Source: a virus
Virus record (IMG/VR): IMGVR_UViG_3300023176_002422
Location: 1 to 24,132 of that record
Direction: 5' to 3' (one strand)
DNA length: 24,132 bases
Shown here: positions 306 through 24,132 of the stretch, one piece after another
Layout of the letters: each line of letters starts with the position of its first letter
How positions within the stretch are numbered: the first letter of the stretch is position 1
The notes under the pieces: generated by a model
The model's database searches: none
Told to the model about the DNA's origin: nothing
The model's input: only the letters and a program-made list of their open reading frames with translations
Made by a program: the position numbers and the translations under genes

Positions 306-313
306 CATAAATA
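306..313 (+). promoter_or_regulatory. Putative T4-type late promoter box (CATAAATA)
   Basis: CATAAATA differs by one base from the T4 late consensus TATAAATA. It lies in the short gap before the glycan island. With T4 geometry (last A at about -6), transcription would start at or within a base or so of the ATG at 319, giving an almost leaderless message. No Shine-Dalgarno sequence precedes that ATG. The match is short, so chance is possible in AT-rich DNA. Confidence 0.45.
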
Positions 314-318
314 TCAGT

Positions 319-1128
319 ATGAAAACAATCGTATTGGTAACAGGTGGCTTTGATCCACTACACTCGGGACATATTGCATATTTTGAAGAAGCCGCTAAAC
401 TAGGTGATGAACTAATAGTTGGCGTTAATTCAGATGCCTGGCTTACACGTAAAAAAGGCAAACCATTTATGCCATTCAAAGAACGTATTGCAATCATCAC
501 AAGTCTGCGTATGGTAAGTGGTGCTATCGATTTTGATGATTCGGATGGTGGTGCCGGAGGCGCAATATTCAAGTGCAAAGAAATTTTTGGTAATGATTGT
601 AAAATTATCTTTGCTAATGGTGGTGATCGTAGTGTTAAAAATATTCCAGAACTAGTAATGTATGGTGATGATCCGCAAGTAGAATTTATGTTTGGTGTTG
701 GCGGAGATGATAAAAAGAATTCAAGCAGTTGGATCTTAGATGAATTTAAAAATCCTAAAGTTGTTCGTCCATGGGGCTGGTATAGAGACTTATATACTAT
801 TGGTAAAGAAATTAAAGTTAAAGAATTAGTCATTGAGCCTGGTAAACAACTGTCTATGCAAAAGCACAGTAAACGTGCTGAAATGTGGTATGTGCTTAAA
901 GGCAAGTGCAAAGTTGTTACTATATTAAATAATGTACCCGATGAAAAAGTTTTAAATAACCTAGGAATAGGTTATGACATTGGTAAAGAAGTATGGCATC
1001 AAGGTGTAAATCCTTATGACAAACCTTGCCATATACTAGAAGTACAACACGGAGAAGAGTGCGTAGAATCAGACATCATGCGTATTGGTGTAGACGATGA
1101 CTATGGCCAGGAAGGACAACAAGAATAA
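319..1128 (+). CDS. Nucleotidyltransferase-cupin fusion protein (sugar activation)
   Basis: The protein has two domains. Residues 1-140 are a cytidylyltransferase/adenylyltransferase-like Rossmann domain: VTGGFDPLHSGH gives the HxGH signature (H15, H18), and KNSSSWIL at 133-140 sits where the ISTSxI-like loop is expected. This family (HldE C-domain, TagD, PCT) transfers a nucleotide to a sugar or alditol phosphate. Residues 147-260 resemble the cupin of type II phosphomannose isomerase/ManC: PWGWYRDL, then LSMQKHSKRAEMWYVLKG with likely metal ligands H183 and E188, and VWHQGVNP with H227. The fusion could activate and modify or bind one sugar; the exact substrate is unknown. It is the first gene of the glycan island. 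Its stop overlaps the next start (TAATG), so coupling is likely. No Shine-Dalgarno is visible. Confidence 0.8.
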   Translation: MKTIVLVTGGFDPLHSGHIAYFEEAAKLGDELIVGVNSDAWLTRKKGKPFMPFKERIAIITSLRMVSGAIDFDDSDGGAGGAIFKCKEIFGNDCKIIFANGGDRSVKNIPELVMYGDDPQVEFMFGVGGDDKKNSSSWILDEFKNPKVVRPWGWYRDLYTIGKEIKVKELVIEPGKQLSMQKHSKRAEMWYVLKGKCKVVTILNNVPDEKVLNNLGIGYDIGKEVWHQGVNPYDKPCHILEVQHGEECVESDIMRIGVDDDYGQEGQQE

Positions 1129-10553: not shown

Positions 10554-10563
10554 CTGAAATCTC

Positions 10564-10571
10564 CATAAATA
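10564..10571 (+). promoter_or_regulatory. Putative late promoter box (CATAAATA), + strand
   Basis: CATAAATA lies 42 bases before the ATG at 10614. Predicted initiation near 10577 leaves a 37-base leader containing AAGGAG at 10598-10603, 10 bases from the ATG. This geometry is normal and makes it one of the better late-promoter candidates here. Confidence 0.5.
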
Positions 10572-10586
10572 GTAATTAACTACGTA

Positions 10587-10594
10587 TATTTAGT
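10587..10594 (-). promoter_or_regulatory. Putative promoter for the - strand glycan operon
   Basis: Read on the - strand this is ACTAAATA, two bases off the T4 late box. The same stretch also contains TATACG (+ strand 10583-10588) with TTGAAT 16 bases further upstream (10605-10610), which could be a sigma70 site instead. Either would serve the operon starting at 10553. Confidence 0.4.
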
Positions 10595-10613
10595 ATTAAG
10601 GAGTATTCAATAA

Positions 10614-11540: not shown

Positions 11541-11555
11541 TTTTAGTGTTATAAT
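11527..11555 (+). promoter_or_regulatory. Putative sigma70-type promoter (TTGCTC-N17-TATAAT)
   Basis: TTGCTC at 11527-11532 and a perfect TATAAT at 11550-11555 are 17 bases apart. Predicted initiation near 11562 leaves a short leader with AAGGG before the ATG at 11579. The -35 lies inside the end of the preceding gene. It would drive the unknown 396-residue gene and uvsW, separating them from the late-expressed island. Confidence 0.65.
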
Positions 11556-11578
11556 AATTGAAATAATAAGGGTGTCTT

Positions 11579-12769: not shown

Positions 12770-14216
12770 ACTAGTAATTAAAGATGAAGTAAACGTAAAG
12801 TTTGAAGGACTTGATTTAGAAATGCGTAAAGCATTAACTAATAAGTTCAAGTATGATATTCCTTATGCACGTTACTTGCCAGCATATAAACTAGGACGTT
12901 GGGACGGCAAAGTTAGTTTCTTTGGACTAGGCGGAACAACATATATTAGTATGCTTGAAGACGCACTTCCTTTTTTAGAACAGAAAGGTTGGTATGTTGA
13001 AGTTGAGGATCATAGAGAAACTAGAGATTTACAGTTTACAAACATTACAGAAAACTATTGGAAAGATCAAGGTGCTGTATGGCCAGAAGGACACGTAGCA
13101 GAAGGACAACCAATTGTACTACGTGACTATCAAGTAGAAGTAATTAACAATTTTATTAGCAACCCACAAAGTCTACAAGAAGTTGCTACCGGCGCTGGTA
13201 AGACTATCATAACGGCCACATTGAGTAAGATTTGTGAGCCGTATGGTAGCACAATCGTTATTGTTCCGAACAAAAGTCTTGTTACACAAACTGAAGAAGA
13301 TTATGTAAACGTAGGACTTGATGTTGGAGTATATTTTGGTGATAGAAAAGAACTAGGTCACAAACACACTATTGTTACTTGGCAAAGTCTTAATGTGCTA
13401 GATAAGAAATCAAAGAACCACGAAGCCGCACATACACTAACAGAATTTTTACAAGATGTACGCACAGTTATTGTTGACGAAGTACACCAAGCAAAAGCAG
13501 ATGTGCTTAAGAATTTGCTTACACAAAACTTTGCACACGTTCCTATTCGTTGGGGACTAACAGGTACTATACCAAAAGAACAGTTTGAGTTTCAAGGTAT
13601 TAAAGCAGGATTGGGTGAAGTTATTAATCATATTTCTGCACACGACTTACAGCAAAAAGGTGTACTAGCAAACTGTCATGTAAACATTGTACAAACAGAT
13701 GATGTACAAGAGTTTAGCAACTATCAAGAAGAACTAAAGTATTTGGTTACAAGTGAACATCGCATTGATTGGATAGGTAAACTCGTAGACAAAATTAAAG
13801 ACTCCGGTAATACATTGATTCTAGTTGATCGTATTTCAGCAGGTAAAATGTTGGAAGAAAGATTAGAAAACTCTGTGTTTGTATCAGGAGAAACAAAGGG
13901 TACTGATAGAAAGGAACACTATGACTCAATTAAAGATAGCACTAATAAAATTATTATCGCAACGTATGGAGTTGCGGCTGTAGGAATTAATATTCCTCGC
14001 ATTTTTAATCTCGTCCTTATTGAGCCTGGCAAGTCTTTTGTAAGAGTTATACAAAGTATAGGCCGCGGAATTAGAAAAGCAGAAGACAAAGACTTCGTAC
14101 AAATTTGGGATATCACAAGCAGATGTAAATTTGCGAAGCGACACCTAACACAACGTAAGAAATATTATAAAGAAGCGAACTATCCTTTTACAATAGAAAA
14201 GATAGCAATCGATTAG
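12756..14216 (+). CDS. uvsW: UvsW-type ATP-dependent DNA/RNA helicase
   Basis: This 486-residue superfamily 2 helicase unwinds branched DNA and R-loops and promotes fork regression in T4. An N-terminal UvsW domain (CKLVIKDEVNVKFEGL, then YKLGRWDGKVSFF) precedes the motor. Motor motifs: LRDYQ (122-126), ATGAGKT Walker A (144-150), DEVH box (241-244), LTGT motif III, and QSIGRGIRK motif VI near 435. Length is close to T4 UvsW (about 500). The start is GTG inside the upstream gene's end; GGAG at 12743-12746 lies 9 bases before it, and no ATG occurs before residue 23, so GTG is needed to keep the N-domain. Role: recombination-dependent replication and repair. Confidence 0.92.
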   Translation: MPTCKLVIKDEVNVKFEGLDLEMRKALTNKFKYDIPYARYLPAYKLGRWDGKVSFFGLGGTTYISMLEDALPFLEQKGWYVEVEDHRETRDLQFTNITENYWKDQGAVWPEGHVAEGQPIVLRDYQVEVINNFISNPQSLQEVATGAGKTIITATLSKICEPYGSTIVIVPNKSLVTQTEEDYVNVGLDVGVYFGDRKELGHKHTIVTWQSLNVLDKKSKNHEAAHTLTEFLQDVRTVIVDEVHQAKADVLKNLLTQNFAHVPIRWGLTGTIPKEQFEFQGIKAGLGEVINHISAHDLQQKGVLANCHVNIVQTDDVQEFSNYQEELKYLVTSEHRIDWIGKLVDKIKDSGNTLILVDRISAGKMLEERLENSVFVSGETKGTDRKEHYDSIKDSTNKIIIATYGVAAVGINIPRIFNLVLIEPGKSFVRVIQSIGRGIRKAEDKDFVQIWDITSRCKFAKRHLTQRKKYYKEANYPFTIEKIAID

Positions 14217-14224
14217 GAGAACAT

Positions 14225-14728
14225 ATGCAAATACTTACATTAGAAAATGAACACTTTGATTTACAAACGCTACCAAAAGAAATAGACAAAGATATACGTT
14301 ATAGCGTACTAGATAACTCAGATCCTAAGGATCCTGATTACTTTTTTGTGCCACTAATTTACTTAGAAAGTTTTAGTTCGCCTGCCGTAGTACTACAGAT
14401 AGGATCAGCACAAATACAAATGCCTTTAGAGTGGAGTATGGTTGTAGGAAACTCTGATGTAGGTGATTTAGAAGTGTTACCATTAACAAGTTTAAATGAT
14501 AGAGGCTTTGAAGCATTTATCTTTAATCCACTAACAAGTTCTCGTCCTGAGTTTGTTCCGGTGGATGTTGTAAACGTTTATCAAGACGTTAAGTTTTATT
14601 TTCCAAAACTTAAATCAGGACAACTACTAACAACGCCATTAGAAAAGAAAAAGAATCCTAATTGTGCGTTTTTTGTTAAAGAAGTTTCACGACAAAGTGA
14701 AACATTGGATTTTAGCCTTGTATGGTAA
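14225..14728 (+). CDS. Conserved-looking phage protein of unknown function
   Basis: The 167-residue acidic protein has no motif I can assign. It contains DYFFVPLIYLESF, VVLQIGSAQIQMPLEWSMVV, LEVLPLTSLNDRGFEAFIFN, FVPVDVVNVYQDVKFYFPKL and CAFFVKEVSRQSE. It looks beta-rich and compact, with no signal peptide or membrane helix. A strong TTAGGAGAAC lies just before the ATG. It sits 8 bp after uvsW, within the replication gene run. Coding status is secure from its length, ribosome site and composition; function is unknown. Confidence 0.68.
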   Translation: MQILTLENEHFDLQTLPKEIDKDIRYSVLDNSDPKDPDYFFVPLIYLESFSSPAVVLQIGSAQIQMPLEWSMVVGNSDVGDLEVLPLTSLNDRGFEAFIFNPLTSSRPEFVPVDVVNVYQDVKFYFPKLKSGQLLTTPLEKKKNPNCAFFVKEVSRQSETLDFSLVW

Positions 14729-14740
14729 GGAGAAAGGATA

Positions 14741-15097
14741 ATGACTATGAAAGCAGGTAAAATATGGGGTCAAACAGAATTGATCCATGCAAACGGTGTA
14801 TTGGAATTTCACCGTATTGAATTCAAAAAAGGATTCAAATGTTCAGAACACGAACACAAGTATAAGTGGAATGGCTTCTTTGTTGAATCAGGCAAGATGA
14901 TTGTTCGTGTATGGCAAGATGACCAGGACGGTTTAATTGATGAAACAATTTTAGGTCCAGGCGAGTTTACACAAGTTAAGCCAGGTAAAGTGCATCAGTT
15001 TGAAGGTATAGAAGATGGTGTAGCATTTGAATTATACTGGGCAGAATTTAATCACGATGATATCGTAAGAAGAACTGTAGGATCAAAATCTAAATAA
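14741..15097 (+). CDS. Small single-domain cupin protein
   Basis: The 118-residue protein is one cupin barrel. CSEHEHKYKWNGFFVESGKM supplies the first cupin motif (H37, H39, with E49 in the distal position). PGEFTQVKPGKVHQFEG supplies the second (H85). Metal binding by three histidines is likely. Small cupins include sugar epimerases, isomerases and dioxygenases, and this one is not linked to a substrate by sequence. GGAG about 10 bases upstream supports ATG 14741; an in-frame ATG two codons later is an alternative. The stop overlaps the next start as TAATG. Confidence 0.75.
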   Translation: MTMKAGKIWGQTELIHANGVLEFHRIEFKKGFKCSEHEHKYKWNGFFVESGKMIVRVWQDDQDGLIDETILGPGEFTQVKPGKVHQFEGIEDGVAFELYWAEFNHDDIVRRTVGSKSK

Positions 15098-15822
15098 TGT
15101 TTGAACGTATTAAAAGCATCTTTAAAAAACAAGACAATCCAGAAATAACTTTTTGGAGTGAAGTACCCGGTCTTGAAGATGTTGTTCCAATTAAACCGGC
15201 TGTTAACTATCTACCCAAGTGGTGGAAAGACATGCCTCGTTTTGCAGATGTCGAACTTCCGCCCGAAGGTGTAAACAAAGGCACAGCAAAAAATTGTCCG
15301 GCTTTTGTTGATTTCTTTAAGTCAGCATATGTTGTACCATTATGGTGTGATGTTGAATTAGATATAAATCCACAAGGATATACCGTAAGAACAAGTTACG
15401 ATAAGTTTAAGTTTTCACATCACAATCCAATACAGTTTAAACAGTGGCTACCACAACACTTACAACAAAATGTATCTATGGTATTAAAGCCAGAGTGTCC
15501 GTGGCGTGTTAAAACAAGTCCGGGATATAGTGTAATGCAGTTACCTATGATGTTTGAGTTTAATGATACGTTTGAGTGTATGGCTGGAACCATTTGGAGT
15601 GATAAGTTTCACGAAATGAATCAACAACTAGTAATTAAAAAGTATGGTAAAATTACATTAGAAAGGGGAACCCCTTTAGCAATGTATGTTCCATTTAAAC
15701 GTGAAAAATTTAATTTTAATTGTACACACAGAACTCCTGAACTAGAAAGACTAGAAAAGAAAAGTCAAATGATAGTGCGTTCAAAGTTTATCGGCGGGTA
15801 CAAAAAAATGCAAAGTGAGTAA
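15097..15822 (+). CDS. Unknown protein, tryptophan-rich
   Basis: The 241-residue protein has no motif I recognise. It begins with a short basic helix (FERIKSIFKKQ), then ITFWSEVPGLEDVVPIKPAV, YLPKWWKDMPRF, KNCPAFVDFFKSAYVVPLWC, a beta-rich middle, and LERGTPLAMYVPFKRE near the end. The pattern 'P---ylP-Ww---P' followed by 'CPa--d----gyviPlw-D' suggests a conserved phage family, but I cannot name it. It is joined to the genes before and after by TAATG overlaps, so it is translated with the cupin. No membrane or secretion signal. Confidence 0.65.
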   Translation: MFERIKSIFKKQDNPEITFWSEVPGLEDVVPIKPAVNYLPKWWKDMPRFADVELPPEGVNKGTAKNCPAFVDFFKSAYVVPLWCDVELDINPQGYTVRTSYDKFKFSHHNPIQFKQWLPQHLQQNVSMVLKPECPWRVKTSPGYSVMQLPMMFEFNDTFECMAGTIWSDKFHEMNQQLVIKKYGKITLERGTPLAMYVPFKREKFNFNCTHRTPELERLEKKSQMIVRSKFIGGYKKMQSE

Positions 15823-16058
15823 TGGCTAAGATATACGAATCACCCGACGGAGGAGAAACTGTGTACGAAAGAGATACAGTAACAGGCGAACGCATATGCA
15901 TTGAAAAACCTGTACATCCTGATTGGTATATTGATCCTTATGATTTTGATTTGATAACAGAAATGGCCAAAGATGGAAATAAAACATTGCAAAATTTATT
16001 AAAAGAAGTTAAACTAGTATACAACTTGAGTATAGAAGAAGAAGATTATCATGGCTGA
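15822..16058 (+). CDS. Small unknown protein (78 aa)
   Basis: A short acidic protein that starts MAKIYESPDGGETVYERDTV and ends with a predicted helix (TLQNLLKEVKLVYNLSIEEE). Its start overlaps the upstream stop (TAATG), and its end overlaps the gp62 start by 8 bp, so it is part of the same coupled run. No known motif. The start is preceded by AAAGTGAG, a modest ribosome site. Confidence 0.62.
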   Translation: MAKIYESPDGGETVYERDTVTGERICIEKPVHPDWYIDPYDFDLITEMAKDGNKTLQNLLKEVKLVYNLSIEEEDYHG

Positions 16059-16500
16059 AAAGAAAAAGTTTCTTGATTTAAAAGCAATGCTTAGTGCTGT
16101 TGATCGCAGAGATAAAGAATGGTATAACAAACTTAGCGACGACGATAAAAAACTATTTGCTCCTTTTATTGCTATGCGTTATGTAAGCAGTGTTAAAGGT
16201 GATAAGTTTTTTCAAGAACACTACTTAGAAATGTGCAATGAATTTGTAAACAAACATCACTGGTCACTAAGCAAAAATCATAAAGGCTTGCTGTGGAAAC
16301 TAATGGCAATGTGCGGTGCTTACGAAAACTTTTTTCATCAGTATCAAGCGGCTCCAAAAAAACAAACAAAGAATAAATTTACACAATTCTTGCTAGACAA
16401 GAATCCTAATATGAAGATGGAAGATGCAGAGTTACTATCAAGTATTATGTCAAAGAAGGAACAAGATCAATACGTTAAAGACTATGATCCAAACAGTTGA
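16051..16500 (+). CDS. 62: Probable sliding-clamp loader small subunit (gp62-like)
   Basis: In T4, gp62 with four gp44 subunits loads the gp45 clamp. This 149-residue all-helical protein resembles the short cyanophage gp62: LKAMLSAVDRRDKEWYNKLS, then DDDKKLFAPFIAMRYVSS (the 'k-f-PFi-nR-lS' signature), a helical middle, a GLLWKLMAMCGAYENFFHQY segment, and a C-terminal 'kMEDAELLSSIMSKKE' helix. T4 gp62 is longer (187 residues). Gene 44 and gene 45 are not in this window, unlike the T4 order 45-44-62. The assignment rests on pattern memory and context in a replication cluster, so it is probable, not certain. Confidence 0.65.
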   Translation: MAEKKKFLDLKAMLSAVDRRDKEWYNKLSDDDKKLFAPFIAMRYVSSVKGDKFFQEHYLEMCNEFVNKHHWSLSKNHKGLLWKLMAMCGAYENFFHQYQAAPKKQTKNKFTQFLLDKNPNMKMEDAELLSSIMSKKEQDQYVKDYDPNS

Positions 16501-17176
16501 ACAACCATATGAGTGCGTACATTGCGGCAAGGCGTTTCAAAAAGAAAAAACGCTGATGGCTCATATGTGTGAGCCTAAACGCAGACATCTACAAAAAGAT
16601 GAAAAGCGTGTACAGGTTGGTTTCCTTGCATTTAATAAATTTTATACAATGGTACAGCGTACTAAACCTAAAACTTATGCAGAGTTTTGTAAAAGCAGTT
16701 ACTATAATGCGTTTGTTAAGTTTGGTAGTTTTGTTAGCAATATTAATCCGTTGTATCCAGAAAAGTTTATTGACTTTGTAATTAAGTCAAATGTAAAATT
16801 AGATCATTGGTGTCGTGATGAATTATACGACACGTATATGTTTGAAATGATAAAAATAGAACCCACTGAATCCGCATTAGAACGCAGTGTTCAAACAATG
16901 CTAGAGTGGGCAGATAAAGAGCAAGCACAGTACAACGACTATTTTAGATATTGTAATTTAAATAGAGCAGTTAACGATATTAGAAACGGACGTCTTAGTC
17001 CTTGGTTATTATTGAATTCAAAATCAGGAAAAGAAATGCTAAGTAAGTTCAATGATGAACAATTAGCAATCGTTGAACCAGTTTTGGATATTCCGTTTTG
17101 GCAAAGGCAATTCAAAGCAAAGCCTGCGGATGTAGAACTAACAAAAGAAATAATCAAGGAGGCACACATTGATTGA
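16484..17176 (+). CDS. Zinc-finger protein of unknown function
   Basis: I start at ATG 16484 (MIQTVEQPYECVHCGK), 17 bp inside the gp62 end, because the frame upstream is only the shadow of gp62. Residues 11-29 form a C2HC finger: C11, C14, H27, C29 in CVHCGKAFQKEKTLMAHMC. The rest (200 residues) is helical with conserved-looking pieces: FLAFNKFYTMVQRTKPKTYA, YYNAFVKFGSFVSNINPLYP, LSPWLLLNSKSGKEML and IPFWQRQFKAKP. A nucleic-acid or protein-binding role beside the clamp loader is plausible. I believe such proteins recur in marine T4-like phages next to gene 62, but the function is not known to me. Confidence 0.7.
   Translation: MIQTVEQPYECVHCGKAFQKEKTLMAHMCEPKRRHLQKDEKRVQVGFLAFNKFYTMVQRTKPKTYAEFCKSSYYNAFVKFGSFVSNINPLYPEKFIDFVIKSNVKLDHWCRDELYDTYMFEMIKIEPTESALERSVQTMLEWADKEQAQYNDYFRYCNLNRAVNDIRNGRLSPWLLLNSKSGKEMLSKFNDEQLAIVEPVLDIPFWQRQFKAKPADVELTKEIIKEAHID
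17156..17162 (+). promoter_or_regulatory. Strong Shine-Dalgarno sequence that fixes a TTG start
   Basis: AAGGAGG, seven bases complementary to the 16S rRNA tail, ends 6 bases before TTG 17169. No ATG lies at that spacing, so the gene at 17169-17480 is most likely initiated from TTG. Confidence 0.75.
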
Positions 17177-17480
17177 CACAGAAACATATACTGTTGTAAC
17201 AAACATGCGAGATGGCGAACCTATAGATCGAATTTATGGAGGCGCGGCGGGATCTCCTCGTATGCGTTTGGTACAAGCAGACGGAACCGAGTATCAAGGA
17301 AAGATTACCAAAAAAACTATTATAGTAGATGGTATAAATGGAAAATTTAAATCATACATTTATGTCACAGAGGACAAAAGAGTATTTGACAGGATGGGAC
17401 TTCCAGTGTATAATGTAGATATAAATGAAGTAACAGTTGAGGAGAATGAAGATGCTACACAAGATCAGTCAGATGTGTGA
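17169..17480 (+). CDS. Small unknown protein with TTG start (103 aa)
   Basis: The protein starts MIDTETYTVVTNMRDGEPID from a TTG codon with a near-perfect ribosome site. It looks like a small beta-rich domain (GAAGSPRMRLVQADGTEYQG, IIVDGINGKFKSYIYV) with an acidic tail (VTVEENEDATQDQSDV). No family recognised. It overlaps the upstream zinc-finger gene by 8 bp and the next gene by 29 bp. A strong ribosome site with a weak start codon could set its level. Confidence 0.65.
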   Translation: MIDTETYTVVTNMRDGEPIDRIYGGAAGSPRMRLVQADGTEYQGKITKKTIIVDGINGKFKSYIYVTEDKRVFDRMGLPVYNVDINEVTVEENEDATQDQSDV

Positions 17481-17655
17481 CAAAATTGATTCTATTAAAC
17501 GTGACGCAGATAGATTGCGTAAAATGAAGTATGGAGAAAACAAACATTCAACAACAGAAATTGATAACTTGATTGCACAAATACAATCAGACTGTTATCT
17601 AATTTCACAGGACAGAAGCCCTTATGCCAAGAGTACCGAGAAAGACAACACATAA
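17452..17655 (+). CDS. Small helical protein of unknown function (67 aa)
   Basis: I use ATG 17452 (MLHKISQMCDKIDSIKRDAD), 7 bases after GAGGAG at 17439-17444. An in-frame ATG at 17446 and TTG at 17437 are alternatives. Residues 1-30 form a likely amphipathic or coiled-coil helix, and IDNLIAQIQSDCYLISQ a second one. It overlaps both neighbours (29 bp upstream, 32 bp downstream). No function assigned. Confidence 0.58.
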   Translation: MLHKISQMCDKIDSIKRDADRLRKMKYGENKHSTTEIDNLIAQIQSDCYLISQDRSPYAKSTEKDNT

Positions 17656-17842
17656 AAATTACAGTCAATACGATCCAAAGATTCACACTAAAACTAAAGG
17701 AGGCCATGGGTTCGGTATGAAAAAAGGTGTAAAAACAAAAGACTACGAAAGCAGTGGACTTCATTTGATTGAAGTATTCAAATGGGAAGTACCTAAACAT
17801 CTAAAAGAAGAATACGAAAAATTTAAACAAGCAAATGCCTGA
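17624..17842 (+). CDS. Small basic protein of unknown function (72 aa)
   Basis: A lysine-rich protein starting MPRVPRKTTHKNYSQYDPKI, with a glycine-rich middle (KTKGGHGFGMKKGVKTK) and a C-terminal helix (WEVPKHLKEEYEKFKQ). Basic charge suggests nucleic-acid or nucleotide contact (inference). It overlaps the previous gene by 32 bp and the next by 8 bp. Its coding status rests on tight packing in the operon, since it has no known motif. Confidence 0.58.
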   Translation: MPRVPRKTTHKNYSQYDPKIHTKTKGGHGFGMKKGVKTKDYESSGLHLIEVFKWEVPKHLKEEYEKFKQANA

Positions 17843-18413
17843 TATCGATTTAGATTTTTTTGATCGCGACAGTGTGTTAGAAAAATTCAAACACATCAAA
17901 GCCTCACGTGAAGAAAAAGGCGAATTGAAAAAACATAACACAGGTGTTTATTTTCATAATGCTCCTGTTGATCCTTTTACAGATCGTTGCACCCTTGATC
18001 ACAAACTAGCAGAAGATCGAGGATACTTTAAAATTGATATGTTAAATGTTCACATATATGAGCATGTAAAAGACGAAGAACACTTAAATACACTTTTACA
18101 AAAGGAGCCGTTGTGGGAACTACTTACTCACGAAGAATTCAGCAACAACTTATTTCACGTCGCAGAACACAGCACTATTCTAAAAGAAATGAAACCGCAG
18201 AGCATAGAACAATTAGCGGCAGTACTAGCAATTATCCGTCCAGCGAAGAGGAGTTTGCTTGGACAACCGTGGGATACGGTGATGAAGAACGTTTGGACGA
18301 AACCTGAAGACGGAAGTTACTATTTTAAAAAGGCACACGCAGTTGCTTATGCACATGCGATTGTGGTACACATGAATTTATTATGCGAAGAATTAAAAAA
18401 TGAACAACAATAA
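17835..18413 (+). CDS. Miniature DNA polymerase III alpha (DnaE)-like protein
   Basis: The 192-residue protein reads like DnaE with its domains cut down to the catalytic signatures. PDIDLDFFDRDSVLEKF (2-18) matches the palm 'PDIDiDF---R--v' holding two catalytic aspartates. YFKIDMLNVHIYEHVK (64-79) matches 'KfDfLGLktLt', site of the third (D68). LFHVAEHSTILKEMKPQSIE, AAVLAIIRPAK (106-138) matches 'FqleS-gm---l--l-P---eDi-a--AlyRPG'. YYFKKAHAVAYAHA (162-175) matches 'FnKSHAvaYa'. The PHP, thumb, beta-binding and OB domains of the roughly 1,160-residue family are absent. T4-like phages replicate with a B-family polymerase, so this may be an accessory or a repurposed relic. It overlaps both neighbours. 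Confidence 0.75.
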   Translation: MPDIDLDFFDRDSVLEKFKHIKASREEKGELKKHNTGVYFHNAPVDPFTDRCTLDHKLAEDRGYFKIDMLNVHIYEHVKDEEHLNTLLQKEPLWELLTHEEFSNNLFHVAEHSTILKEMKPQSIEQLAAVLAIIRPAKRSLLGQPWDTVMKNVWTKPEDGSYYFKKAHAVAYAHAIVVHMNLLCEELKNEQQ

Positions 18414-18660
18414 TAACGAAGAACATTTTGTTTTTAACAACGATACCTTTGAAGAACAAGAAATTGCACAACTATCTTCCTTGATGGAAAATGAAGCGGT
18501 GCTACGTAAAGCACGAGAAAAATTTAGAGAAGAACAAAGCCGTCCTAGTCTTAGTGAATGTAAGGCATGCGGTGAAGAAATTCCAGAGGCAAGACAAAAA
18601 GCAGTACCAGGTGTTCAACTTTGTTTAGAGTGTGCAACACTAAACGAAAAACCTTGGTAA
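18400..18660 (+). CDS. DksA/TraR-family C4 zinc protein
   Basis: The 86-residue protein has a helical N-terminal part with an acidic stretch (FEEQEIAQLSSLMENEAVLR) and a C-terminal four-cysteine finger, C54-x2-C57-x17-C75-x2-C78 (ECKACGEEIPEARQKAVPG, then LCLECA), exactly the spacing of DksA/TraR. Such short TraR-like proteins bind the RNA polymerase secondary channel and alter promoter use without ppGpp. It lies just after the DnaE-like gene (14 bp overlap) and ends next to a convergent gene. A role in redirecting host transcription during infection is a reasonable inference. Confidence 0.8.
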   Translation: MNNNNNEEHFVFNNDTFEEQEIAQLSSLMENEAVLRKAREKFREEQSRPSLSECKACGEEIPEARQKAVPGVQLCLECATLNEKPW

Positions 18661-19035
18661 CTATTTTATCTTTCTAATTAATTGTATTGATTTTCTTTTA
18701 ATACGTTTTTCGGCAATATCATTAAGTCTTACCATATGTCCAAAAATTAATTCAACATCTTTGGTTGCAAAGGTTTTGATTAGTCCTTTAAATTTGTTCA
18801 TTTCAGACTTCATGAATATGTTAATAGGTATTTTGCGATTAGATTCCCACCACCAACTATCTCCGCATTCAAGCAATGCTAGTTTTTGGTTGTCATCTGA
18901 GCAACTAGAGTAATCGTATATGCTCGTAACATTAGAATCTTGATTAATAACGATACCAACGTATTCGATATCCCCGTGTTTAATACAACTTAAAAACGGG
19001 AATTTTTCCTGTAAATCTTCTTGTAGTGTTGTCAT
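18661..19035 (-). CDS. Unknown 124-aa protein
   Basis: I start at the ATG at 19035 (MTTLQEDLQEKFPFLSCIKH). The 18 codons upstream overlap the promoter region and the + strand gene. Recognisable pieces: DIEYVGIVINQDSNVTSIYD, LALLECGDSWWWESNRKIPI and a basic C-terminus (AEKRIKRKSIQLIRKIK). The 'CGDSWWWESNR-iPI' segment looks like a conserved core, but I know no family. A GGA lies a few bases before the ATG, with a TATAAT box (+ strand 19054-19059) further up. It runs opposite to its neighbours and abuts the DksA-like gene's stop. Confidence 0.68.
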   Translation of the reverse strand: MTTLQEDLQEKFPFLSCIKHGDIEYVGIVINQDSNVTSIYDYSSCSDDNQKLALLECGDSWWWESNRKIPINIFMKSEMNKFKGLIKTFATKDVELIFGHMVRLNDIAEKRIKRKSIQLIRKIK

Positions 19036-19043
19036 ACTATTCC

Positions 19044-19051
19044 AATAAATA
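19044..19051 (+). promoter_or_regulatory. Putative late promoter box (AATAAATA), divergent region
   Basis: AATAAATA is one base off TATAAATA, in the gap before a probable structural gene. Initiation would be near 19057, with AGGA at 19059-19062 and ATG at 19073. The same gap holds a - strand TATAAT at 19059-19054, which may serve the opposing gene. A TTGAGC on that strand lies about 15 bases further up, a poor spacing. Confidence 0.45.
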
Positions 19052-19072
19052 ACATTATAGGATGAACTCAAT

Positions 19073-19900
19073 ATGCTCAAGTTACCCATATATATTTATG
19101 AAACCGGTTATACCTTATACAGTGATTTGGATTCCGGGATTAAACAAGGATATACGCCAATGTACACAAAAGACATACAAATTGTGAAAGGTGTCACGAA
19201 CACTGTAAAGTTCACAGTTAAAAACCAGGATCAAAAGCCAATAGATATTAGCGGCGAAACACTAACATTCGTGTTAGTTAACAAGGAAACAGGTGCAGTA
19301 TATGTTGAAAAAGCATGTACTACTGTAGACGACGGTAGCACTGTTGCTACACGTGGTGTTGCTACGCTTACACTGAACGAAAGCGATACAGCAACATTAG
19401 TAAGCAAGTTTTACAAGTTCTCTGTGTACAGAACCGTAAACGGCGCTGGCAAGTATCCTACATATTCAAATACATATTATGAAGTAGCAGGCAATATTGA
19501 AATCGTTGATCAAGTATATCCAGCATTTACAGATTCAACAACACTTCCTAACACAGACTTTACTAGACCATTAACTAATAATTTCTATAGCCATAACGGA
19601 CAAATAACAGAATACTTTAGTTCAATCTATGATGCACAGCCTGAATATAAACGCAATGGTGCTGTTCATACTGTAACATATTACAGCGATGGATATACAG
19701 GCGATCTTACAATACAGGCCACTTTGGACAGCCAAGTTACAGCAGATACAAGTTGGGTAGACTTAACTACTATTAGTCTAACTAGTTCAGACGCTATTGG
19801 TTATGCCAATGTAACTGGTGTGTACAATTATTTAAGATTAAAGCATTTACCTGACAATTCGAACACCGGAACACTTGACAAAGTACTAGTTAGATCGTAA
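19073..19900 (+). CDS. Probable virion structural protein (baseplate/fibre-like)
   Basis: The 275-residue protein has, from residue 30, a BppU-like N-terminal beta domain: MYTKDIQIVKGVTNTVKFTV, then QKPIDISGETLTFVLVNKE. A Thr/Ser/Asn-rich beta stretch with YEVAGNIEIVDQVYPAF follows, and a C-terminal sandwich-like domain (LTIQATLDSQVTADTSWVDL, then GVYNYLRLKHL). Such architecture is usual in tail or baseplate fibres and their attachment proteins. Start uncertain: ATG 19073 has AGGA upstream, but ATG 19160 has AAGGA about 9 bases upstream and begins exactly at the domain, so the shorter 246-residue form may be the real one. Confidence 0.68.
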   Translation: MLKLPIYIYETGYTLYSDLDSGIKQGYTPMYTKDIQIVKGVTNTVKFTVKNQDQKPIDISGETLTFVLVNKETGAVYVEKACTTVDDGSTVATRGVATLTLNESDTATLVSKFYKFSVYRTVNGAGKYPTYSNTYYEVAGNIEIVDQVYPAFTDSTTLPNTDFTRPLTNNFYSHNGQITEYFSSIYDAQPEYKRNGAVHTVTYYSDGYTGDLTIQATLDSQVTADTSWVDLTTISLTSSDAIGYANVTGVYNYLRLKHLPDNSNTGTLDKVLVRS

Positions 19901-19903
19901 AAT
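19875..19903 (+). promoter_or_regulatory. Near-consensus sigma70 promoter of the primase gene
   Basis: TTGACA (19875-19880, perfect -35), a 17-base spacer and TAAAAT (19898-19903, one mismatch) lie inside the end and just past the stop of the structural gene. Initiation 7 bases after the -10 falls at 19910, the A of the primase ATG. No Shine-Dalgarno precedes that ATG. Confidence 0.75.
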
Positions 19904-19909
19904 ACTAGT

Positions 19910-20926
19910 ATGAATTCGATACAATCTACTATTACGACTGCCTTACCTTCAAAACGAAAGCAAACTCCTAGTGGTTGGGTTTCGTTTGATGCACCTTGCT
20001 GTGTTCATAATGGCGAAGGTGCGGACAAGCGTAAGCGTGGAGGTATAATGTTCAACGGTGACGGAACAGTGAGTTATCATTGTTTTAACTGTGGATATAC
20101 TGCATCGTTTATTCCTGGTAGAAACTTGTCCTACAAGATGCGAAAACTACTAGGATGGTTTGGAATGCCAAATTCAGAAATTACCAAACTTGCTTTGGAG
20201 GCACTGCGAATTAAGGAGGAGACCGTCATAGATGGGAATACCCCTCATATACAGTTGCCTGTTTTTGAAAAGAGAGAACTGCCAGTTGGTGCTCGGCCTT
20301 TTATGGAATGGCATAACTGGAAAGCATTAGAACCAAGCGGATTAGATCCAGAATTCATCAGAGCCGTCGAGTATGTAGTTTATGATCGTGGCCTTGATAT
20401 TGGTGACTATGACTTTATGTGGACCTGCGAAGGATCATATAAAACAAGGCTGATAGTTCCTTTTTATTATCAAGGGGACATAGTCGGATACACTGCTCGT
20501 AAACTAGGCGACGGCTCACCTAAATATATTACAGATAGTCAACCGGGTTATGTTTTTAACCTAGATGGACAAGGCTGGGATAGACAGTTTGTTATTGTAG
20601 TAGAAGGACCGTTTGATGCAATAAGCATAGGCGGCGTAGCAGTATTACGTAACGAAGTAAACGACCAACAAGCAATGCTAATAAACAGTTTGCAAAGACA
20701 GGTTATTGTTGTTCCTGATAAAGATCAAAGTGGAGAACAATTGGTTACCGATGCGATTAAATATGGATGGACTGTTGCTTTTCCAGATTGGCCTGATGCT
20801 GATGTAAAAGACGTTGCTGATGCTGTTAAACGTTATGGTAAAATATACACAATGCAAAAGATTATTCATAGTGTTACTAGTGGAATTAAAATACAACTTC
20901 TGGCAAAAACTTACTTTGCAGATTAA
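19910..20926 (+). CDS. 61: DNA primase (gp61-type)
   Basis: The 338-residue protein makes RNA primers for lagging-strand synthesis together with the gp41 helicase. It has a zinc ribbon at 30-61 (CCVHNGEG, then CFNCG: C30/C31, H33, C58, C61), a linker, an RNA-polymerase-like region with YKTRLIVPFYYQGDIVGYTA and SPKYITDS, and a TOPRIM fold: VVEGPFDA (E232) and VVPDKDQSG (D270, D272). Length equals T4 gp61 (about 340). The next in-frame ATG is at residue 47, inside the zinc ribbon, so ATG 19910 is the real start. It is expressed from its own sigma70-like promoter. The helicase follows after 25 bp. Confidence 0.92.
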   Translation: MNSIQSTITTALPSKRKQTPSGWVSFDAPCCVHNGEGADKRKRGGIMFNGDGTVSYHCFNCGYTASFIPGRNLSYKMRKLLGWFGMPNSEITKLALEALRIKEETVIDGNTPHIQLPVFEKRELPVGARPFMEWHNWKALEPSGLDPEFIRAVEYVVYDRGLDIGDYDFMWTCEGSYKTRLIVPFYYQGDIVGYTARKLGDGSPKYITDSQPGYVFNLDGQGWDRQFVIVVEGPFDAISIGGVAVLRNEVNDQQAMLINSLQRQVIVVPDKDQSGEQLVTDAIKYGWTVAFPDWPDADVKDVADAVKRYGKIYTMQKIIHSVTSGIKIQLLAKTYFAD

Positions 20927-20944
20927 ACAAAAAGGCAGTATAAT
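20916..20944 (+). promoter_or_regulatory. Putative sigma70 promoter of the helicase gene
   Basis: TTGCAG (20916-20921), a 17-base spacer and perfect TATAAT (20939-20944). The -35 is in the last codons of primase. Initiation 7 bases after the -10 falls at about 20951, one base before the ATG at 20952. The gap has no Shine-Dalgarno near the ATG (GGCAG is about 13 bases away). Confidence 0.7.
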
Positions 20945-20951
20945 ATAAACT

Positions 20952-22382
20952 ATGCAAGACTTTAATACAGACATACAAAAACTATTTTTAGAAATGTTTC
21001 TAGCAGATGCGGAAGCATTTGTAAGATGTCAAGGCATCTTTGAAAGCGAAAACTTTGATCAAAAACTACGTGAAGGTGCAGAGTTTATCAAGAAGTATGT
21101 TGACGAATATAAAGTTATGCCTGAACTTGATATTGTTAACAGTGCATGCCAAACAAATTTAAAAGATGCTAGTGCGGTAGGACAAGAACATACAGATTGG
21201 TTATTGGATACATTTGAAAAGTTTAGCAGACACAAAGCACTAGAACGTGCAATTCTAAAAGGTGCTGACTTACTTGAAAAGGGTGAGTATGGTCCTATTG
21301 AAGGCATGATTAAAGAAGCAATTCAAATTGGTCTTGCAAAAGATATGGGTACAGACTACTTTGCTGATCCTAGAGCAAGACTTGAAGGATTAAAAGATAA
21401 CAACGGACAGGTAAGCACAGGTTGGCCAAGCATTGACAAGAAATTGTTTGGTGGTTTTAACAGAGGCGAACTAAACATTTTTGCAGGTGGTTCGGGTGCA
21501 GGTAAAAGTTTGTTCTTGCAGAACATGGCTGTAAACTTTGCAACAGAAGGCATGAACGTGTTGTACATTAGTTTAGAACTTTCAGAAGCACTAACAGCAA
21601 TGCGTATTGACAGTATGCTTACAGGTATTGCTACAAGAGAGATTTTTAAAAGTCTTGATGATGTAGAAATGAAAGTTAGAATGATGGGCAAGAAGTCAGG
21701 CAAGATACAAATCAAGTATATGCCAAGTGGTAAGAATGCAAATGACCTGCGTAGTTATGTTAAAGAATGGTCAATTAAAAACAAGTGCAAGCCAGATGTA
21801 TTGTTAATTGACTACCTAGATTTGATGATGCCACTAAGTGTTAAAGTATCGCCAAGTGATTTGTTTGTAAAAGACAAATATGTATCAGAAGAACTACGTA
21901 ACTTGGCAATGGAACTAGGTTGTGTATTTGTAACAGCATCGCAGTTAAACAGAGCGGCGGTTGAAGAAATTGAATTTGATCATTCACATATTTCAGGCGG
22001 ACTTAGTAAGATTCAAACTGCTGATAACGTGATTGGTATCTTTACAAGCCGTGCTATGAAAGAACGTGGACGTTATCAAATACAGTTTATGAAAACACGT
22101 TCATCGAGCGGTGTAGGACAAAAAGTAGATCTAGAGTTTGATGTGGATAGTTTGCGTATTAGAGATCTTGCAGAAGACGAACAAAATAATTATCAAAGTC
22201 AATCAAGCACCATTGTAAACAATCTTAAAAAGACTAGCACAGTATTAGAATCACATCATGATGCAGGAGAAGAAACTGCACTACGCGAGCCAGGCGATGG
22301 TGATACTGTTGGAAAGATTAGCGGTAAAGCACAAAGTACTAAACTACGTGACATGCTTAAGAGTTTAAACACAGAGGATTAA
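20952..22382 (+). CDS. 41: Replicative DNA helicase (gp41, DnaB-like)
   Basis: This 476-residue hexameric helicase unwinds the fork 5' to 3' and carries the primase. The N-domain is helical (LFLEMFLADAEAFVRCQGIF). The RecA-like motor starts near 150 with TGWPSIDKKLFGGFNRGELN. Motifs: Walker A GGSGAGKS (179-186), catalytic glutamate in YISLELSE (E209), Walker B VLLIDYLDLM (D287), and VTASQLNR, the DnaB H3 motif. RYQIQFMKTRSSSGVG holds the arginine-rich C-terminal motif. A low-complexity tail of about 70 residues follows; gp41 tails bind other replisome proteins. Length matches T4 gp41 (475). It has its own sigma70-like promoter and abuts the oxygenase gene. Confidence 0.93.
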   Translation: MQDFNTDIQKLFLEMFLADAEAFVRCQGIFESENFDQKLREGAEFIKKYVDEYKVMPELDIVNSACQTNLKDASAVGQEHTDWLLDTFEKFSRHKALERAILKGADLLEKGEYGPIEGMIKEAIQIGLAKDMGTDYFADPRARLEGLKDNNGQVSTGWPSIDKKLFGGFNRGELNIFAGGSGAGKSLFLQNMAVNFATEGMNVLYISLELSEALTAMRIDSMLTGIATREIFKSLDDVEMKVRMMGKKSGKIQIKYMPSGKNANDLRSYVKEWSIKNKCKPDVLLIDYLDLMMPLSVKVSPSDLFVKDKYVSEELRNLAMELGCVFVTASQLNRAAVEEIEFDHSHISGGLSKIQTADNVIGIFTSRAMKERGRYQIQFMKTRSSSGVGQKVDLEFDVDSLRIRDLAEDEQNNYQSQSSTIVNNLKKTSTVLESHHDAGEETALREPGDGDTVGKISGKAQSTKLRDMLKSLNTED

Positions 22383-22949
22383 ATGTTTAAAGTACTACCA
22401 AATTTTTTACCACAATCAGAGTTTGACAGTGGCGTTGGCAGAGTAAGACACGATCCTAGCATACCTTGGTTTTGGGTACGTGGTACAAGTGATGTTAAAA
22501 GAGATCTTGACGACGATGCAGATTGGGATCACAGTTTTGCACACACGGCATACGAGTTTGGAGAACCCACAAGTTTCTTAGGAGTTAAATGCGAAGACAT
22601 TCTTAAAAGAGCATGTGAACAAGCAGATTTAAAATTAAAAAACATTTTAAGAATACGTTTTGGTTTAATTACAAAAACACCAACACCAATTGAACACGGT
22701 GGTCATGTAGACTTTAAACAACCGCACATGACAGCACTATATTATCTTACAACTTGTAACGGTCCTACTATATTCTACGAAGAAAAATGGAGCGAAGATG
22801 TAGAACATACAGAACTTACAGAAGCAAGACGTGTACCCGCAGAAGAAAACAAAATGCTTATATTTGACGGTACAACATATCACAGTTCAGTTTCACAAAC
22901 AGATACAAAGCAACGTATCGCAATCAATTTTAACTTCGAAATAGAGTAA
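22383..22949 (+). CDS. 2OG-Fe(II) oxygenase (prolyl 4-hydroxylase-like)
   Basis: The 188-residue double-stranded beta-helix enzyme has the iron triad and co-substrate arginine: HVD (H108, D110) in EHGGHVDFKQPHMTALYYL, H167 in TTYHSS, and R178 in KQRIAINFNFE. The family uses 2-oxoglutarate and O2 to hydroxylate proteins, nucleobases or small molecules. These genes are frequent in marine T4-like phages, usually with unknown target. The start directly follows the helicase stop (no gap) with AGAGG just upstream, so it is translationally linked to replication genes. A DNA- or protein-modifying role is only inferred. Confidence 0.85.
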   Translation: MFKVLPNFLPQSEFDSGVGRVRHDPSIPWFWVRGTSDVKRDLDDDADWDHSFAHTAYEFGEPTSFLGVKCEDILKRACEQADLKLKNILRIRFGLITKTPTPIEHGGHVDFKQPHMTALYYLTTCNGPTIFYEEKWSEDVEHTELTEARRVPAEENKMLIFDGTTYHSSVSQTDTKQRIAINFNFEIE

Positions 22950-22957
22950 TTTCCTAC

Positions 22958-22965
22958 ACTAAATA
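22958..22965 (+). promoter_or_regulatory. Putative late promoter box (ACTAAATA)
   Basis: ACTAAATA lies in the 35 bp gap before the 82-residue gene. Initiation near 22971 leaves a short leader with GAGGAAAA before ATG 22985. It resembles the - strand ACTAAATA at 10594-10587, so both may be one phage-specific variant of the late box. Confidence 0.4.
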
Positions 22966-22984
22966 CTAGTGCGAGGAAAATATT

Positions 22985-23233
22985 ATGAAATGGTTAATAG
23001 TGGTGCTAATGATGGGTTCTCACCCAGACGGTGCCAAGGATACATACCTATATTTTACACCCGAGTTTGAAACAGTTGAAGACTGCAAGAACTATGTTTA
23101 CTTCAATGCAGGAAGCATCAAAAATCATATGCAAATGGAGTTCGATGGTAATGTGCCAGAGATGATCTACTGCATGACCGAAAAGAAAGTCAAAGAGTTT
23201 ATAGACTTTGGTAAACCCGGTTTTGATGCATAA
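22985..23233 (+). CDS. Small unknown protein with hydrophobic N-terminus (82 aa)
   Basis: The protein starts MKWLIVVLMMGSHPDGAKDT: a basic residue, then eight hydrophobic residues, too short for a full membrane helix and without a clear signal-peptide cleavage site. The rest is mixed (YLYFTPEFETVEDCKNYVYF, VPEMIYCMTEKKVKEFIDFG) with two cysteines that could pair. GAGGAAAA before the ATG supports the start. It looks like a small domain of the kind seen after signal peptides, but the family is not recognised. Confidence 0.65.
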   Translation: MKWLIVVLMMGSHPDGAKDTYLYFTPEFETVEDCKNYVYFNAGSIKNHMQMEFDGNVPEMIYCMTEKKVKEFIDFGKPGFDA

Positions 23234-23241
23234 CTAATAGC

Positions 23242-23355
23242 ATGATAAAAATTTTTAAATTGATATTAAACAGTTGGCGTTTAATGGATAGCGAATACGG
23301 AGAAATCTGTAAAAAATGCCCGCAAGCACATCAATACCATTATCCGTATTTTTAA
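23242..23355 (+). CDS. Possible small protein with Cys/His cluster (37 aa)
   Basis: A short frame starts at ATG 23242 (MIKIFKLILNSWRLMDSEYG) and stops at TAA 23353-23355, 8 bp after the previous gene. The second half is ICKKCPQAHQYHYPYF: C-x2-C, then H-x3-H, a spacing that could bind zinc. It fills the only otherwise empty stretch of this region and overlaps the convergent yqgE-like gene's stop by 4 bp. There is no clear ribosome site, so coding is moderately likely only. Confidence 0.45.
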   Translation: MIKIFKLILNSWRLMDSEYGEICKKCPQAHQYHYPYF

Positions 23356-23921
23356 TTAAAATAAGAATTTACAGAGTTTGAAATAGCAACTGCTGTTGAT
23401 TCTTGCCAAAGTTTACTAACAGGACGTTCTAGTATGTTAGGTGGGCATTTTTGTGTTAACCATCGATGCTGTGGTGTCCAAGGCGGTTCTCCACTCATTT
23501 CACCTTCTAGTTGTCCGCCCTTCCAAGAACTTATCCCTATTGCTAATCTCCATCGACTAGGACCTCTTCCATTTGCAAGTTCACGCAATATTGTTTCACT
23601 ACCAGTAACACAAAGGGTATTTGTTACCCAATATGTATTAGAAGCAAGACAGTCAGGTGTATGAATAAAATAAAGGCTGTCTTCTTGTACAGGACCTCCA
23701 ATATATACAGGCTCTTGGCTTTGATAATCTATGTTAAGTGACTTTGCAATATCACCCACTGTTGTTGTGGTGCTAGGTCTATTAAGCATTATACCCCACG
23801 CTCCGCTGGCGTGATTTTCACATACCAACACAACACTCTGTGCAAAGAATGTGCTGTTAGCACTTGGTTGTGCAATTAATAATTGCCCTTGTAGTCCAGA
23901 ATTAAATTGTACCGAATCCAT
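23352..23921 (-). CDS. YqgE/AlgH (DUF179) family protein
   Basis: The 189-residue protein shows the whole family pattern: LQGQLLIAQPSANSTFFAQS, VVLVCENHASGAWGIMLNRP (31-49), EPVYIGGPVQEDSLYFIHTP (70-89), a VTGSETILRELA segment, GPSRWRLAIGISSWKGGQLE (120-139) and a Trp following (PPWTPQ). Bacterial YqgE/AlgH is about 185 residues, so this is full length. Its role is unclear in bacteria; AlgH was linked to alginate regulation in Pseudomonas. It is unexpected in a phage and may have been taken from a host. It has its own late-type box upstream and runs opposite to the preceding genes. Confidence 0.85.
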   Translation of the reverse strand: MDSVQFNSGLQGQLLIAQPSANSTFFAQSVVLVCENHASGAWGIMLNRPSTTTTVGDIAKSLNIDYQSQEPVYIGGPVQEDSLYFIHTPDCLASNTYWVTNTLCVTGSETILRELANGRGPSRWRLAIGISSWKGGQLEGEMSGEPPWTPQHRWLTQKCPPNILERPVSKLWQESTAVAISNSVNSYFN

Positions 23922-23943
23922 GCCTTTGTTCCAGTTATACCTA

Positions 23944-23951
23944 TATTTATT
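23944..23951 (-). promoter_or_regulatory. Putative late promoter box (AATAAATA), - strand
   Basis: On the - strand AATAAATA lies 22 bases before the ATG at 23921, in the 33 bp gap after the preceding - strand gene. Initiation near 23938 leaves a 16-base leader beginning about at GGAAC. The geometry fits the yqgE-like gene. Confidence 0.4.
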
Positions 23952-23954
23952 TTA

Positions 23955-24132
23955 TTATGCTAGAGTATAATTGAAGATTGTATAACCTTCGTCCGATGAA
24001 ATTTTATATTTTAAATGACTTGGAAATACTATAACGTCACCTGATCTTGGAGAATAGTTCCAATCATCTGCTGTAACAGAATTAATTCCTAGATATTCAA
24101 TGTTTAGGTCTTGTGGAAAAACATTGGTCCAC
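23955..24132 (-). CDS. C-terminal part of a possible beta-helix (2OG oxygenase-like) protein
   Basis: A frame open at the window edge encodes 58 residues ending ...EGYTIFNYTLA, with its stop at 23957-23955. It includes WTNVFPQDLNIEYLGI, then DWNYSPRSGDVIVFPSHLKY. 'SGD-IVFPS' followed by a strand ending 'FNYT' is the usual last part of a double-stranded beta-helix, as in phage 2OG-Fe(II) oxygenases and cupins. The distal histidine may be the one in FPSH. Too short to prove a family. The stop lies 33 bp before the yqgE-like ATG, so both may be cotranscribed. Confidence 0.6.
   Translation of the reverse strand, partial: WTNVFPQDLNIEYLGINSVTADDWNYSPRSGDVIVFPSHLKYKISSDEGYTIFNYTLA

Follow-up and report, generated by a model that had tools for sequence, protein, structure and literature searches.

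How is a phage replication gene translated when its promoter leaves no room for a leader? A 24,132-base virus record, IMG/VR IMGVR_UViG_3300023176_002422 (the whole stretch analysed, hereafter the window), raises this question at its DNA primase gene, which lies between a virion structural protein gene and a DnaB-like replicative helicase gene. The best matches of the primase and helicase are jumbo phages, in the order Agrobacterium phage Atu_ph07, Sinorhizobium phage Phosso, Pseudomonas phage PA5oct and then the RaK2/121Q/CBB group. The original prediction, made from the window alone, suggested that primase and helicase, and the gene starting at position 319 (gene 319) behind a late box, are expressed as leaderless mRNAs. 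Our comparison with related sequences supports leaderless use for the primase and gene 319, and moderately for the helicase.

TTGACA-N17-TAAAAT, the primase promoter, agrees with the consensus at 11 of 12 bases, has a 17-nt spacer and ends six bases before the primase ATG exactly as first described (Table 1). TTGCAG-N17-TATAAT does end seven bases before the helicase ATG, but it is a weaker promoter than had been claimed, with only three of six consensus bases in its -35, next to a perfect -10. The late box before gene 319 also has exactly the predicted layout. Pairing energies with the anti-Shine-Dalgarno sequence of 0.4 kcal/mol at the primase start (19910) and 1.6 kcal/mol at 319 bear out the lack of a Shine-Dalgarno (SD) sequence at both ATGs. 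The helicase start (20952) reaches -4.1 kcal/mol; an AAAAAGG run about 17 nt before its ATG is too distant for a good SD and lies upstream of the predicted RNA start, a qualification to the claim at this gene. The asserted contrast with good ribosome sites elsewhere is partly right: the starts at 14225, 14741 and 10614 have strong SDs (-7.3, -9.2 and -8.7 kcal/mol), but many genes in the window lack one too, by eye, where they abut the preceding gene.

Primase junctions were gathered from scans with the window primase and helicase, from scans with alignments and from 13 named phage regions, which yielded 204 distinct junctions preceded by 60 nt or more of sequence; clustering at 80% protein identity put them into 116 groups. 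Homology alone, and not the promoter, determined the start codons. The best sigma70-type promoter was then sought in the 90 nt upstream, and d denotes the distance from the end of its -10 box to the start codon. Two loci without a usable start (L023 and L113) were left out; the phage RAS14 is outside the set, probably because its tblastn score fell below the start-calling cut-off, and its primase is described separately.

The box-to-ATG spacing, for which the original prediction had proposed a survey of relatives, is kept at the primase. The best promoter lies at d = 5, 6 or 7 in 173 of the 204 junctions, with 15 more at d = 8–10, and in 100 of the 116 groups, compared with a mean of 0.76 and a maximum of 3 groups in 50 rounds of dinucleotide shuffling. 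By group, d is 5 in 5, 6 in 82, 7 in 13, 8 in 2 and other in 14. Among leaderless-type promoters the spacer is exactly 17 nt in 96 of 102. In 63 groups, hereafter the overlapping groups, the first three bases of the -10 box are the TAA that ends the virion gene upstream. If the A of the ATG is taken as +1, the -35 box occupies -35 to -30 and the -10 box -12 to -7 in the 54 overlapping groups with d = 6, which are the textbook positions.

The same arrangement could reflect translational coupling, in which ribosomes ending the virion gene restart at the primase ATG and the 9-nt stop-to-start distance is the conserved quantity. Indeed, this gap is exactly 9 nt in 54 of the 63 overlapping groups, and 108 of 169 helicase junctions overlap or abut the primase stop. 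In 34 further groups, however, the promoter lies beyond the virion stop, with gaps of 12–61 nt, but d remains 5 in 1 group, 6 in 24 and 7 in 9. Apart from the 14 groups with other spacings, the stop is downstream of the -10 box in one group and no upstream open reading frame (ORF) was found in four. On a tree of 118 primases, at least nine changes between the two promoter layouts were counted with a quick method, and the spacing survives them. Because the spacing is constant while the gap varies, the stop-to-start distance is unlikely to be the conserved quantity. Coupling also leaves the nucleotide-level conservation of the -35 box, described next, unexplained, and we regard it as an improbable account of the primase junction.

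The boxes might instead be kept merely as coding sequence for the C-terminus of the virion protein. This peptide is conserved (..[ILVF]-D-K-x-L-x-R-S-stop), and in all 63 overlapping groups the -35 box lies inside it, formed by codons for [V, F, I or L]-Asp-Lys or similar. However, the codon before the Asp ends in T in 62 of 63 groups although its residue varies (V 18, F 18, I 14, L 13), against 36.5% T-ending codons in the rest of the same virion genes. The Asp itself is encoded by GAC in 62 of 63 groups, against 447 of 1384 in that background. Where the promoter has moved away and the homologous Asp is present (14 groups), GAC is found in 4 and GAT in 10. The promoter rule would have accepted GAT as well, so the GAC excess was not built in. 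The stop is TAA in all 63 overlapping groups. The codon choice at and before the Asp shows selection on the -35 box itself, acting on nucleotides. Moreover, L234, L222, PA5oct and others have different upstream C-termini and keep d = 6–7. Conservation for the virion C-terminus alone is thus very hard to maintain.

Chance matches in an AT-rich genome, with the real promoters elsewhere, would agree with the number of promoter-like sites at window positions 5000–24132, which is 68 compared with 73.4 +/- 7.3 in shuffled sequence. As the window alone is not above chance, the case was decided on the relatives, and there the 100 groups at d = 5–7, set against 0.76 from shuffled upstream regions, make this explanation extremely unlikely.

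The absence of SD sequences extends to the relatives. An anti-SD energy of -4.4 kcal/mol or lower occurs in 3 of 102 leaderless-type primase junctions, compared with 32% of 523 control ORFs (drawn from related records, 150 codons or longer, with crude start calls) and 14% of shuffled sequences. If transcription begins at the A of the ATG, the usual initiator preference for a pyrimidine at -1 and a purine at +1 is expected, and 54 of 70 primase junctions that have an ATG start and d = 6 do show the pyrimidine, compared with 93 of 197 SD-led ORFs. Mis-assigned starts, that is, internal true starts behind an ordinary leader hidden in the apparent coding sequence, are scarcely credible: we saw nothing in their favour beyond the general uncertainty of start calls and the differing annotated starts in PA5oct and XacN1, whereas homology among relatives begins at residue 1 and the junctions lack an SD.

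Several observations weigh against a leaderless primase message. Besides the lack of an excess of sites in the window, 14 of the 116 groups fall outside d = 5–8. Eight of these are named relatives with a leadered or coupled primase (SD energies -5.2 to -9.9 kcal/mol in seven, -3.0 in Atu_ph07), and six are environmental groups in which no qualifying promoter was found nearby or the best ones were tied. Start codons of the 102 leaderless-type primases are ATG in 89 and GTG in 13, and GTG reportedly works far less well on leaderless RNA in E. coli (PMC9031893). Finally, all 63 overlapping groups have a stop 8–11 nt ahead of the primase start, where reinitiation could add to expression.

With these points taken into account, the jumbo-phage primase is very probably expressed from its own sigma70-type promoter, which would start at the A of the start codon and hence yield a leaderless mRNA. 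The geometry, its conservation and relocation, the nucleotide-level selection, the absence of SD sequences and the initiator signature are read directly from the sequences, and from them we infer the 5' end of the RNA and its mode of translation. The leader would be 0–1 nt and at most about 4 nt long, and ribosomes would recognise the 5'-terminal AUG (or GUG) in place of an SD. The promoter often sits within the last codons of the virion gene, and the TAA stop there supplies the first half of the -10 box. More speculatively, primase synthesis may be linked in this way to the activity of the gene's own promoter, since late read-through transcripts would offer neither a 5' AUG nor an SD.

Table 1 Features of the window bearing on leaderless expression.
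Feature	Position	Strand	Basis
Virion structural protein gene; primase promoter in its 3' end	19073..19900	+	phrog_14467 virion structural protein, E 8e-11
-35 box TTGACA of the primase promoter, within the last codons (..L-D-K..) of the virion gene	19875..19880	+	sequence read
-10 box TAAAAT of the primase promoter; first three bases are the TAA stop of the virion gene	19898..19903	+	sequence read, 17 nt after the -35 box
6-nt spacer ACTAGT; predicted transcription start is the A of ATG 19910	19904..19909	+	sequence read
DNA primase, no SD	19910..20926	+	phrog_47 DNA primase, E 3.1e-33; homology to relatives from residue 1
Weak -35 box of the helicase promoter, TTGCAG (3/6, 17-nt spacer) or TTTGCA (4/6, 18-nt spacer)	20916..20921 or 20915-20920	+	consensus match
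-10 box TATAAT of the helicase promoter, followed by ATAAACT, 7 nt to ATG 20952	20939..20944	+	sequence read
DnaB-like replicative helicase	20952..22382	+	phrog_19, E 1e-73; PF03796
T4-type late box CATAAATA, followed by TCAGT, 5 nt to ATG 319	306..313	+	sequence read
Cytidylyltransferase-like / mannose-6-P isomerase C-terminal-like gene, predicted leaderless late gene	319..1128	+	PF01467, PF01050

Gene 319 would follow the same arrangement by means of a T4-type late promoter. Among 74 loci (L444 and L445, which lack the N-terminus, were left out), 37 distinct junctions could be read, and 16 of them contain an exact ATAAATA. The predicted spacing is kept in all 16, with the box exactly 5 nt from the start. 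The other 21 lack the exact motif, and some carry a degenerate box at the same place by eye. Families of T4-type late (gp55-type) sigma factors were detected in 6 of the 12 genomes or records searched, including all four complete ones; the record holding the window is only 24 kb long. In the window, two other late boxes, at 19100-19093 (-) and 19044-19051 (+), point in opposite directions at the starts of the virion gene and of an antisense gene, 18661-19089; the minus-strand box ends just 3 nt before its ATG.

At the helicase the rule was looser (-10 at least 5/6, -35 at least 3/6, d 4–9) and no shuffle control was run. Of 169 junctions, 40 have a -10 box at d = 4–9, nine have one further upstream and 12 have neither a box nor the overlap or abutment described above for the rest. 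By these counts, most helicase genes are coupled to the primase gene. In the close relatives of the window a -10 box at d = 6–7 is conserved, and its spacing, which was to be surveyed here as well, is sporadic elsewhere. The window clade and some other lineages may thus have a weaker, lineage-specific leaderless-type promoter of their own for the helicase, a reading in which we place moderate confidence.

We then measured promoter-to-start distances genome-wide, using ORFs of at least 60 codons (40 in some of the scans) rather than annotated starts. XacN1 sites recur near both record ends, which we read as terminal repeats, and its last three pieces (L483-L485) and identical sites were dropped. 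In 12 genomes or records in which no initiation factor 3 (IF3) was detected, sigma70-type promoters fall at d = 5–7 in 61 cases, at 8–15 in 27 and at 18–37 in 391, with a peak at 6; late boxes fall at d = 5–7 in 61, at 8–15 in 16 and at 16–35 in 195, with a peak at 5. The leaderless peak is sharp for both promoter classes in relatives such as RAS14 and XacN1; PA5oct adds little to it (leaderless to leadered 2:27 for sigma70 and 2:33 for late). Late promoters have a known start position, and with it the peaks at 6 and 5 would both place +1 on the A of the ATG.

Outside the primase, an SD of -4.4 kcal/mol or lower is present at 3 of 28 sigma70 sites with d = 6, compared with 223 of 351 leadered ones, and at 1 of 36 late sites with d = 5, compared with 91 of 175. 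A pyrimidine at -1 is found at 26 of 28 and 29 of 36 of these leaderless-type sites, respectively, compared with 158 of 351 and 86 of 175 leadered ones. Genes predicted to be leaderless encode, among others, a piece of a DNA polymerase, a head maturation protease-like protein, virion proteins and, in PA5oct, an exonuclease. In one record (G011 pieces, L170), four small genes share a near-identical leaderless-type promoter ending in TATACTACTGACATGATG, a repeated promoter cassette.

The named relatives differ in how the primase starts. In PA5oct the sequence is TTGACA-N17-TATAAT-GTGCGC-GTG, and the annotated GTG directly behind the -10 box (L119:2980-2986) is upstream of the predicted RNA start; the true start is likely the GTG 6 nt beyond it (NC_071039 position 145890), which bears on how gene starts are annotated. 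In RAS14 the annotated start gives d = 7. For XacN1 the homology-set start, upstream of the annotated one, gives d = 6, and SCTP-2 has d = 6 with a poor -10 box and is leaderless-type only weakly. The primases of 121Q, CBB, K64-1, XaC1, Munch, XbC2 and Vibrio phage 2.275 are leadered, mostly with a promoter at least 26 nt upstream or an SD. That of Atu_ph07 is leadered with a weak SD, and that of Phosso has an SD without a qualifying promoter. Relatives with an SD at these ATGs, which had been named as evidence that would refute the leaderless interpretation, are therefore real, but they were found only among distant relatives (121Q, CBB, K64-1, XaC1, Munch and others), and these encode IF3.

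An IF3 C-terminal domain is present in all nine complete or near-complete named genomes with a leadered or coupled primase (Atu_ph07, Phosso, 121Q, CBB, Vibrio 2.275, K64-1, XaC1, Munch and XbC2). The same search found it in none of the four genomes with a leaderless-type primase (PA5oct, RAS14, XacN1 and SCTP-2) and in none of 20 environmental records, which are possibly fragments. The leaderless peak all but disappears in four IF3 genomes, where leaderless to leadered ratios are 3:187 for sigma70 and 6:110 for late promoters, compared with 61:391 and 61:195 in the 12 without IF3 (Fisher p = 4e-7 and 4e-6; 2e-6 and 0.005 against the four large ones, with genes treated as independent). High IF3 is reported to inhibit leaderless translation (PMC9031893). 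The best tree implies two changes for the gain of phage IF3, and a single clade is not rejected (p-AU 0.443). With IF3 gained once or twice, only one or two evolutionary events underlie the link, whatever the number of genomes compared. We therefore propose only tentatively, as a possibility we hold to be somewhat short of even, that leaderless expression is a genome-wide regime of early (sigma70) and late (gp55-type) promoters in this jumbo-phage superfamily which excludes phage-encoded IF3. If true, a phage that gained or lost IF3 would thereby change which of its messages are usable.

Two other correlates were considered and set aside. Ribosomal protein bS21 was found in 3 of 13 records, namely the leaderless-type PA5oct and the leadered or coupled Atu_ph07 and Phosso. 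The host is weakened as an explanation by phages recorded from Xanthomonas in both groups (XaC1 and XbC2 with IF3, XacN1 without). The phage IF3 genes adjoin Clp genes (L542, L543, L544, L545), a Clp ATPase in Phosso and Atu_ph07 and a ClpS-like adaptor in 121Q. The IF3 gene of Vibrio phage 2.275 has beside it an S21-like gene and then a ClpS/L7-L12-like gene.

Leaderless phage messages are already known, and in proteobacteria leaderless messages are known mostly from single genes. The lambda cI gene is transcribed from the promoter PRM. Its mRNA also starts at its AUG (PMC9031893), but it concerns a single repressor gene, whereas here replication and virion genes of jumbo phages are involved across a broad family. 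Thermus phage phiYS40 is likewise a large lytic phage with genes read from leaderless mRNAs, in its middle and late transcripts (PMC3594737). Its host, however, has shifted IF2/IF3 levels (PMC3594737); here the promoters are of sigma70 and T4-type late classes, the named relatives infect proteobacteria and the leaderless genes are a minority among SD-led ones. In Deinococcus-Thermus bacteria, -10 motifs lie at a fixed short distance from ORFs, without an SD, and the spacing is required (PMC12340547). There the -35 is an optional enhancer (PMC12340547), unlike the consensus -35, 17-nt spacer and second, late class seen here. The gap between our two classes of promoter-to-start distance resembles the leaders of Lactococcus cremoris, which are either shorter than 5 nt or about 40 nt, with none between 4 and 14 (PMC10986495); they were measured in a bacterium, whereas ours are deduced from phage promoter positions.

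Also close to the present case is Pectobacterium phage CBB, which belongs to the same superfamily and has the same promoter classes, an ATAAATA late motif before structural genes, a gp55-like sigma factor and IF-3 (PMC5259590). Its primase is leadered with an SD, and leaderless messages are not mentioned in the available portion of that paper. Leaders of 26–491 nt are reported for jumbo phage AR9 (PMC5312081). The literature searched, a scope that left out most subscription papers and all preprints, yielded leaderless cases in phiYS40, mycobacteriophage and bacteria, and no conserved two-promoter leaderless use in this jumbo-phage family.

A broad phage family would thus keep a leaderless message for a replication enzyme while its promoter has moved along the DNA. 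The inverse link to phage IF3 suggests, as a testable hypothesis, a reason for some giant phages to encode an initiation factor themselves. These phages also form a natural series for studying the ribosome's choice between leaderless and SD-led messages in infected cells. For the primase, the cultured phage PA5oct on P. aeruginosa PAO1 is an available system.

Further features were noted elsewhere in the window. A perfect TTGACA-N17-TATAAT at 17386-17414 (+) lies inside ORF 17169-17480 and is followed by GAGGAG and the in-frame ATGs of ORF 17437-17655; by eye, it is an ordinary leadered promoter. The region 319-12769 holds a run of sugar- or nucleotide-transfer and methyltransferase-like genes (PF01467, PF13578), perhaps for surface modification. 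At 23352-23921 (-), an AlgH/YqgE-like protein (PF02622, E 6e-34) is encoded, which is unexpected in a phage record.

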